From Cohnella sp. OV330 (GTDB lineage Bacteria; Bacillota; Bacilli; Paenibacillales; Paenibacillaceae), in the NCBI RefSeq assembly GCF_900112065.1, contig NZ_FOKE01000006.1, positions 186,001 through 250,000 on the forward strand: a stretch of 64,000 bases of DNA, given 5' to 3'. The position numbers and the translations under genes were made by a program. Below the pieces are notes generated by a model, which worked only from the letters and a program-made list of their open reading frames with translations, made no database searches and had not been told where the DNA came from. Position 1 is the first letter of the stretch, and every line of letters begins with the position of its first letter. Positions 12,267 to 15,561 of the stretch are shown piece by piece.

Positions 12267-13058
12267 ATGCAGCGTTACTTTATCGATCCCGGTCAGATCG
12301 ACGGCGAGGCCGTCGTGCTGCTTGGGGAAGATGCCAGGCATCTGTCAACCGTCATGCGGGCGAAGGCCGGCGACGAGTTCATCGCCTGCGACGGGTCCGG
12401 TCGGGAGAGCCTGGCCGAGATCGTGAACATAGAAGGCGGACGCGTCGAAGGGCGCATCATGCGCGCGCGCGAATCCGAAGCGGAGATGGCCTGGCGCGTG
12501 ACGGTCGCCCAGAGCCTGCCCAAGGGCGACAAGCTCGAGACGGTCATCCAAAAGGGGACCGAGGCGGGAGCGAGCGCGTTTTTGCCTTTCGTTTCGAAGC
12601 GCACCGTCGTTCAGTACGACGCGCGCAAGGAGGCCAAACGGCTAGAACGCTGGCGCAAGATCGCCAAGGAAGCCGCCGAGCAGGCGCATCGCGGCATCAT
12701 GCCCGAGGTCGGGGAGGTCGCTTCCTGGAAGGAGCTGCTGGCTCGCTTCGGCGGCTTCGACCGCGTGCTGCTCTGTTATGAGGAAGAAGGGCGCAAGGGC
12801 GCCGGGCTGAGGCCCGAGCTCGAAGCGTTCGCAAGCCGGCTGCAAGGGGACGCCGAAGGCGCGCCTCGGCCGAAGCTGCTCGTCGTCGTCGGCCCGGAAG
12901 GCGGCTTCGACGAGGACGAAGCCAGGCAGGCGGAGGCTGCGGGAGCGGTCTGCGTCGGGTTGGGCAGGCGCATTTTGCGCACGGAGACGGCGGCGCTCGT
13001 CGCGCTGGCCGCGATCGGATACGAATCCGGAGAGATGGGGGAAGCTCGCCATGTCTAA
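12267..13058 (+). CDS. rsmE: 16S rRNA (uracil1498-N3)-methyltransferase RsmE
   Basis: A 263-residue SPOUT-class methyltransferase modifying U1498 of 16S rRNA. It starts MQRYFIDPGQI, with an N-terminal PUA-like domain (GEDARHLSTVMRAKAGDEF). The knotted SAM site includes VVVGPEGGFDEDE (about residue 210) and GLGRRILRTETAALVAL near the C-terminus. An extra Arg/Pro segment around residues 175-205 makes it slightly longer than B. subtilis YqeU. ATG 12267 follows GGAGG. It overlaps mtaB by 8 bases, so the two are co-expressed. A TATGAT at 12221-12226 may be the -10 box, but no good -35 was found. Confidence 0.95.
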   Translation: MQRYFIDPGQIDGEAVVLLGEDARHLSTVMRAKAGDEFIACDGSGRESLAEIVNIEGGRVEGRIMRARESEAEMAWRVTVAQSLPKGDKLETVIQKGTEAGASAFLPFVSKRTVVQYDARKEAKRLERWRKIAKEAAEQAHRGIMPEVGEVASWKELLARFGGFDRVLLCYEEEGRKGAGLRPELEAFASRLQGDAEGAPRPKLLVVVGPEGGFDEDEARQAEAAGAVCVGLGRRILRTETAALVALAAIGYESGEMGEARHV

Positions 13059-14400
13059 GGTGGCATTTTATACGCTAGGCTGCAAGGTCAACTTCTACGA
13101 TACGGAAGCGATGTGGCAGCTTTTTAAAAAAGAAGGCTACGAACAGGTCGACTTCGAGTCGCGCGCGGCCGACGTGTACGTCATCAATACGTGCACGGTG
13201 ACCAATACCGGCGACAAAAAGAGCCGGCAGATCATCCGGCGCGCCGTGCGCCGCAACCCGGACGCTGTCATCGCGGTGACGGGCTGCTACGCGCAGACGT
13301 CGCCCGCCGAGATTCTCGCGATCGAGGGCGTCGACCTCGTCGTCGGCACGCAGGACCGGGACAAGCTGATGACGTACGTCGCGGACATCCAAGCCGAACG
13401 CAGGCCGGTCAACGCGGTGCGCAACATTATGAAGACGCGCGAGTTCGAAGAGCTCGACGTGCCCCATTTCGCCGATCATACACGCGCCTTCCTCAAGATT
13501 CAGGAGGGCTGCAACAATTTTTGCACCTTCTGCATCATCCCTTGGTCGCGCGGCTTGTCGCGCAGCCGGAATCCCGAGAGCGTCCTCGCCCAAGCGCGGC
13601 AGCTCGTCGCTTCGGGCTACAAGGAGATCGTGCTGACGGGCATCCATACGGGCGGCTACGGCGACGATCTGGAAAATTACCGGCTCGCCGACCTGCTTCG
13701 CGACTTGGACCGGGTAGAAGGGCTTGAGCGGATCCGTATCAGCTCGATCGAGGCCAGCCAGATCGACGACGCGATGATCGAGGTGCTGAACGGCTCGAAA
13801 AAAATGTGCAGGCATCTCCACATTCCGCTGCAGGCGGGCGACGACGAGGTGCTGAAGCGCATGCGGCGCAAGTACACGACGGCCGAGTTCGCGGACAAAA
13901 TCCGGCGGATCAAGGCGGCGATGCCCGGCGTGGCGATCACGACCGACGTGATCGTCGGGTTTCCGGGCGAGACCGAGGCGCATTACGAGCGGGGCTACCG
14001 CTTTATGGAGGAGATCGGTTTCGCGGAGATGCACGTGTTCCCTTATTCCAAGCGGACGGGCACGCCTGCCGCGCGCATGGAGGACCAGGTCGCCGAAGAG
14101 GCGAAGCGCGAGCGCGTCCAGCAGCTGATCGAGCTATCCGAGCGAATGCAGGCCGAATACGCGGCTGGATGGGTAGGCGAAGTGCTCGAGATCATCCCGG
14201 AGCGCGGGGAAAAAGGTCCTGCGGGCAGCGGTCTGATGAGCGGCCATGCGGATAACTATTTGAACATCGTATTCAAGGGCGATCCGTCCCTCGTCGGCCG
14301 GCTGTGCCGGGTGAGGATCGTCGAAGGTGGCGCGAACGAATGCCGGGGCGAACTGATCGAGGCGCCGGCGGCAGGTCTAATGCCTGCCTTGCAGGCTTAA
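13051..14400 (+). CDS. mtaB: tRNA t6A37 methylthiotransferase MtaB
   Basis: A 449-residue radical-SAM enzyme that converts t6A37 to ms2t6A37 in tRNAs. The N-terminal UPF0004 domain provides the three auxiliary-cluster cysteines (LGCKVNFYDTE, INTCTVTNTG, VTGCYAQ). The radical-SAM motif CNNFCTFCIIPWSRG is at about residue 154. A C-terminal TRAM-like RNA-binding region follows (about 370-430). Its start lies inside the end of rsmE, and the order rsmE-mtaB is conserved in Firmicutes. Eighteen bases separate it from the NUDIX-DeoC gene. Confidence 0.96.
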   Translation: MSKVAFYTLGCKVNFYDTEAMWQLFKKEGYEQVDFESRAADVYVINTCTVTNTGDKKSRQIIRRAVRRNPDAVIAVTGCYAQTSPAEILAIEGVDLVVGTQDRDKLMTYVADIQAERRPVNAVRNIMKTREFEELDVPHFADHTRAFLKIQEGCNNFCTFCIIPWSRGLSRSRNPESVLAQARQLVASGYKEIVLTGIHTGGYGDDLENYRLADLLRDLDRVEGLERIRISSIEASQIDDAMIEVLNGSKKMCRHLHIPLQAGDDEVLKRMRRKYTTAEFADKIRRIKAAMPGVAITTDVIVGFPGETEAHYERGYRFMEEIGFAEMHVFPYSKRTGTPAARMEDQVAEEAKRERVQQLIELSERMQAEYAAGWVGEVLEIIPERGEKGPAGSGLMSGHADNYLNIVFKGDPSLVGRLCRVRIVEGGANECRGELIEAPAAGLMPALQA

Positions 14401-14418
14401 TTTAGGAGGATAACGGAA

Positions 14419-15561
14419 ATGTTGGAGATATCGGCAGGCGGCGTCGTATACCGCCAGAACGGCGGCAAGATCGAGATTCAGATGATCGAGGACCGCTTCG
14501 GCAAGACGACGCTGGCCAAAGGCAAGATGGAGCCCGGCGAAACCATCCAAGAGACGGCGCTGCGGGAGATTATGGAGGAGACGGGCATCCGCGGAGACAT
14601 TCGCTCTCCGCTGTCCGTCATTCGCTATCAGTATGAAGCGGCGGACAGGGCGACCGTTCAAAAAGAGGTTCATTATTATCTCGTCGAGGCCGGAGAAGGC
14701 ACGCTGCAGGCGCAAATCGAAGAGATCAAAGGCGTCGCCTGGTATTCTCCCGAGGAGAGCTGGCGGCTTCAGCGCAGCGGCGGTTACGACAACAACGACG
14801 AGGTGCTGCGCGAAGCGCTCCGGCAGCTCGGCTTCGAGCCCCAGGACGGCCATGTCGTCGCGGCGGGCCGCTTCCCGATCTGGACGCCGGGCCAATCGGT
14901 CGCTTCCTTTATCGACCATACGCTGCTCAAGGCGGAGGCCAGGACGGCGGACATCGAGCAGCTGTGCCAGGAAGCGCTCGCTTATCAGTTTTACAGCGTC
15001 TGCGTAAACGGCAGATGGGTGCGGCTCAGCCGCGAACGGCTTGGCGGCACGAACGTCAAAGTATGCGCCGTCGTCGGTTTCCCGCTCGGCGCTGCCGCGA
15101 CGCGCGCCAAAGCGTTCGAGGCGGCAGCCGCCGTCGAGGATGGCGCCTCCGAGATCGACATGGTCCTGTCGATCGGCAAGCTGCTCGACCGGGACTTCGA
15201 TTCGGTCCAGCGCGACATTTCCTCCGTCGTGCGGGCCGTTCAGGGCGGCGCGCTCGTCAAGGTGATTCTGGAGACGGGCGCGCTTACGGACGAGCTGAAG
15301 CGCGAAGCCTGCCGCCTGTCCGAAGCGGCCGGAGCCGATTACGTCAAGACGTCCACGGGCTTCGGCCCCGGCAAGGCGACGGAGGCGGACATCCGTCTCA
15401 TGCGGTCGTCCGTGTCCGGGCATGTCGGCGTGAAGGCGTCGGGCGGCGTTCGCGACGCCGCGACGGCCGAAGCGATGCTGCTGGCCGGCGCGAGCCGCAT
15501 CGGCACGAGCTCGGGCATCGCGATCGTCGGCGGCGACCCGGCGGCTGCCGGCGCGTACTGA
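14419..15561 (+). CDS. NUDIX hydrolase - deoxyribose-phosphate aldolase (DeoC) fusion
   Basis: One continuous 380-codon frame encodes two enzymes. Residues about 1-140 are a NUDIX hydrolase with a perfect GX5EX7REUXEEXGU box (GKMEPGETIQETALREIMEE then TGI). Residues about 157-380 are a full-length DeoC: ASFIDHTLLKAEA at its start, the Asp in ASEIDMVLS, KVILETG, and the Schiff-base Lys in YVKTSTGFGPG. DeoC cleaves 2-deoxyribose-5-phosphate to acetaldehyde and glyceraldehyde-3-phosphate; NUDIX enzymes hydrolyse nucleoside diphosphate derivatives. No in-frame ATG, GTG or TTG precedes the DeoC start, so separate translation of the second half looks unlikely. ATG 14419 follows TTAGGAGGA. Both halves keep their key residues and are probably active (inference). 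Confidence 0.9.
   Translation: MLEISAGGVVYRQNGGKIEIQMIEDRFGKTTLAKGKMEPGETIQETALREIMEETGIRGDIRSPLSVIRYQYEAADRATVQKEVHYYLVEAGEGTLQAQIEEIKGVAWYSPEESWRLQRSGGYDNNDEVLREALRQLGFEPQDGHVVAAGRFPIWTPGQSVASFIDHTLLKAEARTADIEQLCQEALAYQFYSVCVNGRWVRLSRERLGGTNVKVCAVVGFPLGAAATRAKAFEAAAAVEDGASEIDMVLSIGKLLDRDFDSVQRDISSVVRAVQGGALVKVILETGALTDELKREACRLSEAAGADYVKTSTGFGPGKATEADIRLMRSSVSGHVGVKASGGVRDAATAEAMLLAGASRIGTSSGIAIVGGDPAAAGAY

Follow-up and report, generated by a model that had tools for sequence, protein, structure and literature searches.

A NUDIX hydrolase fused in frame to a deoxyribose-phosphate aldolase, conserved in Cohnella and recurrent in other Bacilli

Ndx1 of Thermus thermophilus (1vc8), given as an Ap6A pyrophosphatase (PMC5389931), and AP4A hydrolase (3i7u) have solved structures of 126 and 134 residues, respectively, with no DeoC domain attached, and passages of PMC5389931 contained no match for deoc, aldolase or fused. 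The deo operon listed in PMC3146418 includes no NUDIX gene. Text searching in PMC, in which titles and the starts of abstracts were considered among the matches listed, did not yield a NUDIX-DeoC fusion, and databases of the InterPro type may list the architecture. Here we describe a gene of this kind within the window, the whole stretch of 64,000 nucleotides of Cohnella sp. OV330 that was analysed.

The fused gene and its parts are listed in Table 1. Both domains of the 380-codon open reading frame scored above their Pfam cut-offs (NUDIX, 68 bits at residues 4-119, cut-off 21.1; DeoC, 53.3 bits at residues 164-368, cut-off 23.8), placing the N-terminal part in the NUDIX superfamily, and the C-terminal part belonged to the NCBIfam deoC family TIGR00126 (268 bits, cut-off 117.3). 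Nine NUDIX models were listed for the window protein in the same kind of profile search, all of them scoring below their own cut-offs. The NUDIX box, complete by the usual consensus, had G35, E38, E41, R49, E50, E53, E54, T55 and G56 invariant in all 16 Cohnella fusions. These results confirmed the sequence-only reading in that the NUDIX and DeoC domains are both complete and share one frame, the two whole enzymes being genuinely fused in the window open reading frame. The gene immediately upstream is presumably mtaB. At its extreme end, just before the ribosome site of the fused gene, we observed a terminator-like hairpin (14382-14396) followed by only a weak run of T; the scanned region contained 12 sites of this type, where 6.6 were expected.

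Table 1. Positions in the window of the fused gene, its parts and its upstream neighbour
Feature	Position	Strand	Remarks or basis
Fused NUDIX-DeoC gene	14419..15561	+	380 aa, ATG start, TGA stop included
AGGAGG, ribosome-binding-site-like, before the fused gene	14404..14409	+	Sequence reading
NUDIX domain, residues 4-119	14428..14775	+	Pfam PF00293
NUDIX box, residues 35-57	14521..14589	+	Cohnella fusion alignment
Variable linker, residues 137-149, about 13 residues	14827..14865	+	Alignment and AlphaFold2 pLDDT
GAGCCC, at the site of GAGG in 17/30 unfused rows	14836..14841	+	Sequence comparison
DeoC N-terminal segment, residues 150-160, xFPIWxPGQ	14866..14898	+	Like the segment in unfused Cohnella DeoC
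DeoC domain, residues 161-369	14899..15525	+	TIGR00126; fold match to 8qps
K310 codon, DeoC	15346..15348	+	Alignment of 19 fusions
mtaB-like gene, conserved upstream neighbour	13051..14400	+	

An unbroken frame across both domains was found in 16 of 37 Cohnella genomes, the window's own included, and the other 15 fusions ranged from 99% (C. ginsengisoli) down to 70% identity to the window gene. The possibility that two genes were joined by an error in sequencing or assembly, which had been raised as a frameshift or a lost stop in this assembly, was thus ruled out and keeps a practically negligible probability: broken frames are seen in other genes of the genus (mtaB of G023 and a second deoC of G027), but none was found in the fused gene, and the 16 genomes exclude the case in which relatives always carry two genes and this assembly is a single outlier. 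As for the broken mtaB-like gene of G023 (G023:C9:216642-217987, L132), it was in two pieces in different frames with a stop in the second, due either to a sequencing error or to a true break, while the other 45 genomes compared for mtaB had one piece each without stops.

The locus behind mtaB in the 37 genomes contained 16 fusions, 10 separate pairs, seven NUDIX genes only, two deoC genes only and, in two cases, neither. The 10 separate pairs had the same gene order behind mtaB and some of them apparently overlapped, the likeliest candidate start of deoC lying in some pairs within the final part of the NUDIX gene, but in a different frame. Because 10 genomes of the genus hold the separate genes in this order, the most likely origin of the fusion is a closely spaced pair in which the stop codon of NUDIX was lost, in agreement with the alternative offered earlier, a mere fusion of neighbouring genes. 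The distance between mtaB and the NUDIX gene was 679 (L152, G287), 798 (L153, G286), 481 (L126, G021) and 415 (L143, G036) bases in four rows and 16-194 bases in the remaining rows, with the exception of G023 and its broken mtaB.

In the MtaB tree the 16 Cohnella fusions fell into two supported blocks on a fork without resolution, so that a single origin within the genus is no more than probable. In a tree of the NUDIX and DeoC parts together, the 16 fusions grouped with that of G393, a genome of the same family and another genus, with a support of 81. Cohnella lubricantis (G014), nested in one of the fused blocks of the MtaB tree, retained DeoC and lacked NUDIX, suggesting that NUDIX was probably lost there after the fusion and that the pairing is not essential.

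The junction was compared in fused and unfused rows. In 17 of 30 unfused rows (only four of 10 in Cohnella) a GAGG motif was found at a constant position near the end of the NUDIX gene, where it mostly encodes E-V; besides coding the tail of NUDIX, it can serve there as a ribosome site for deoC. Among the Cohnella fusions, in contrast, the GAGG in register was kept in one of 16 (G034), and nine of 16, the window included, had GAGCC there. When GAGG was counted anywhere in the scanned stretch, the contrast was weaker (19 of 30 unfused rows against eight of 19 fusions), so that the difference between fused and unfused genes rests on the register. A start codon near DeoC was absent in 10 of the 16 Cohnella fusions, and of the six with an ATG near the DeoC start only G022 had a motif, GGAG, 12 bases upstream. 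As had been noticed before, an independent DeoC start was lacking in the window: no ATG, GTG or TTG was found within 25 codons upstream of the DeoC core, and a hidden separate start was rejected. The DeoC of the Cohnella fusions is thus probably produced only in fused form, the fusion being probably obligate. The segment at residues 150-160 resembled the N-terminus of unfused Cohnella DeoC, suggesting that it was probably inherited from DeoC rather than being new linker.

Outside Cohnella we found at least 20 further fused frames, at least 19 of them in other families. They included those of G393, G446 (family f6) and G400 (family f8), and at least 17 of 397 other genomes, taken as an even draw of the class, were fused (families f27, f32, f35, f37, f40 and f58). 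The class, order and family searches joined pieces in the same frame only, with E cut-offs of 1e-68, 1e-75 and 1e-20, and these figures are therefore too low for fusions with a long linker and for split pairs whose genes lie in different frames; in one of the searches the G393 fusion appeared as DeoC only. The sequence-only reading had known the two enzymes only as separate proteins, a view that does not hold, because fused genes are present in several Bacilli families. The comparisons with relatives that it proposed gave, within Paenibacillaceae, the same architecture in the Cohnella fusions and in G393, and adjacent NUDIX and deoC genes in the 10 Cohnella genomes described above.

The quick NUDIX and DeoC tree contained 82 rows with long branches, 36 fused and 46 split. 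From 36 non-window rows spanning both domains we took 32 (17 of 17 without stops and 15 of 19 with stops), plus G567; four rows with stops (G875, G859, G724 and G843) were left out, and G514, cut by the end of its contig, was not included in the tree. A single ancient fusion common to all was rejected, since placing the 36 fused rows on one side of a branch gave an AU p of 1.2e-06. The fewest changes between fused and split on this tree were eight, at least five of them forced by starred branches, their number and direction being unsure because the tree was a quick one with long branches. Closely spaced pairs have probably given rise to the fusion on more than one occasion, and part of the changes may correspond to the splitting of old fusions.

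In families f27, f32 and f40 a start codon lay 6-9 codons before the DeoC core, preceded by a ribosome-site-like motif in eight of nine fused frames. The motif had four or five bases (five in five of the nine frames), a loose count given that four-base motifs also precede starts in f58 (G822 and G775). The persistence of start and motif before DeoC makes two products possible in these three families, and their frames look like an intermediate stage of fusion. The G393 fusion (L136, 1967-3175, minus strand) had a long Ala/Gly-rich linker, R at position 310 and no GTSSG motif; its aldolase is probably dead, and the replacement of K310 together with the loss of GTSSG indicates that a fused DeoC can decay.

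In order to evaluate the constraint on both halves, dN/dS was calculated for 12 pairs of fused genes, some genomes being shared between pairs. The NUDIX part gave values of 0.02-0.22 and the DeoC part values of 0.02-0.17. For the linker, whose 13 codons do not allow firm estimates, dN/dS was higher in 10 of the 12 pairs (0.31-1.5); of the other two pairs, one gave zero and one an undefined value. An intact frame shared by 16 of the 37 genomes, together with low dN/dS in both halves, is that of a natural fusion of two enzymes. D247, K310 and K339, the expected catalytic Asp, the Schiff-base Lys and the second Lys of DeoC, were conserved in all 16 Cohnella fusions, and K310 was retained in 18 of the 19 aligned fusions.

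The fused copy was the only DeoC found in five of the 16 fused genomes (G002, G013, G018, G029 and G036), each of which had a deoB match above the cut-off; a deoB match was present in all 16, that of G009 being in two pieces and below the cut-off. Because the catalytic residues are kept, the fused gene is the sole deoC in five genomes and deoB is present, the fused DeoC very likely acts as an aldolase. The other 11 genomes had further DeoC matches elsewhere. In the window's genome this was a stand-alone deoC behind a regulator gene, presumably similar to deoR of Bacillus, and in G027 the second, stand-alone deoC (G027:C1:73270-73916) was in two pieces in different frames.

These additional copies, the lack of NUDIX in C. 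lubricantis and the missing DeoC motifs of G393 are what would be expected if the fusion were neutral drift of adjacent genes with one domain dispensable or inactive. Low dN/dS in both halves among the window's relatives and the five genomes with no other DeoC match speak against this explanation, which we consider improbable.

The solved proteins nearest in sequence to the NUDIX half were Ndx1 (72 bits) and AP4A hydrolase (54 bits), followed by an 8-oxo-(d)GTP phosphatase (41 bits), whereas ADP-ribose pyrophosphatase was a much weaker match (E 5.5e-05). Diadenosine polyphosphate hydrolases and 8-oxo-(d)GTP phosphatase are expected to yield nucleotides, not deoxyribose 5-phosphate. A direct hand-over from NUDIX to DeoC is unlikely, because the products of an Ndx1/MutT1-like enzyme are not expected to be substrates of DeoC. 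AlphaFold2 predicted two confident domains in the 380-residue protein (mean pLDDT 90.3, pTM 0.61) and a stretch with pLDDT below 50 at residues 144-149; given this pTM and the weak stretch, the model provided no confident fixed arrangement of the domains. In a fold search with this model the best 50 matches were all to the DeoC half.

It had been suggested that the pair forms a clean-up or salvage enzyme. In a coupled enzyme of this kind the NUDIX half would act on a deoxyribose-bearing nucleotide whose product would feed DeoC directly or after further steps, and the fusion would aid transfer. Repeated selection for such coupling would explain why the two genes are neighbours in several Bacilli families and why they have passed repeatedly between the split and the fused state, but close gene spacing by itself makes repeated fusion easy. 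In addition, one half was present without its partner at nine of the 37 loci, and both the relatives of the NUDIX half and the uncertain placement of the domains argue against coupling. We regard a coupled salvage enzyme as improbable, and a damaged-nucleotide pathway shared by NUDIX and DeoC is not supported by the sequences compared, the interpretation proposed in the sequence-only reading being, as a whole, partly supported. Less probable still is a more specific version, in which the NUDIX half would cleave a deoxyribose-containing dinucleotide, for instance a 2'-deoxy-ADP-ribose, to give deoxyribose 5-phosphate, consumed at once by the tethered DeoC; if it were true, a clean-up pathway in one chain would explain why the pair stays together and repeatedly fuses in Bacilli.

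The explanation that we favour, with a probability of about 75%, is that of an obligate fusion of NUDIX and DeoC derived from an adjacent pair, both halves probably active and the benefit being their 1:1 production. In this protein a NUDIX pyrophosphohydrolase of the Ndx1/MutT1-like kind would form the N-terminal part and a class I deoxyribose-phosphate aldolase the C-terminal part, the two most likely working independently and being connected by a short flexible tether. It would have originated, probably once in Cohnella, when the NUDIX stop was lost in the closely spaced pair behind mtaB, and the ribosome site and start of deoC would have decayed afterwards, as comparison with the unfused relatives suggests. 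Both halves are probably active because their motifs are kept and dN/dS is low, DeoC serving presumably as a cellular aldolase, in some species as the only one. Fixed 1:1 production, and not the passing of an intermediate, would be the most likely benefit, because DeoC does not act on the products expected from NUDIX.

Both enzymes are known housekeeping ones, and there was no sign that their fusion brings a new function. The fusion points to a link in function or expression between a NUDIX hydrolase and DeoC in Bacilli, and living genomes show what appear to be its successive steps, from close separate genes to one frame with an inner start and then to an obligate fusion. Two reactions that apparently have no intermediate in common would here be joined repeatedly; if equal dosage were the only gain, this would be a clean example of a neutral or mildly useful gene fusion. 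We consider the case moderately interesting as gene evolution, with no support so far for a new pathway.

Compared with known systems, the fused DeoC matched the fold of the Geobacillus DERA 8qps (rmsd 0.9 over 212 columns, 59% identity) and shared the expected catalytic residues with DeoC proteins of TIGR00126 such as 8qps and BH1352 of Bacillus halodurans (6d33). It differed from these stand-alone enzymes in the added N-terminal NUDIX and in the absence of its own start codon. MutT1 (NF052459) and PRK08999, whose similarity is weak, resemble the fusion in having an N-terminal NUDIX within a longer protein, their second domain being histidine-phosphatase or ThiE-like and not DeoC. The window protein fell outside both families, with 46.5 bits over the NUDIX part only against a cut-off of 475 for MutT1, and 26.3 bits over the NUDIX part, far below the cut-off of 245, for PRK08999. 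The inner DeoC start with its motif seen in eight of nine frames of f27, f32 and f40 has no counterpart in the Cohnella window, whereas the order of the domains, in one frame, is the same in the window, in G393 and in the frames of f6, f8, f27, f32, f35, f37, f40 and f58.
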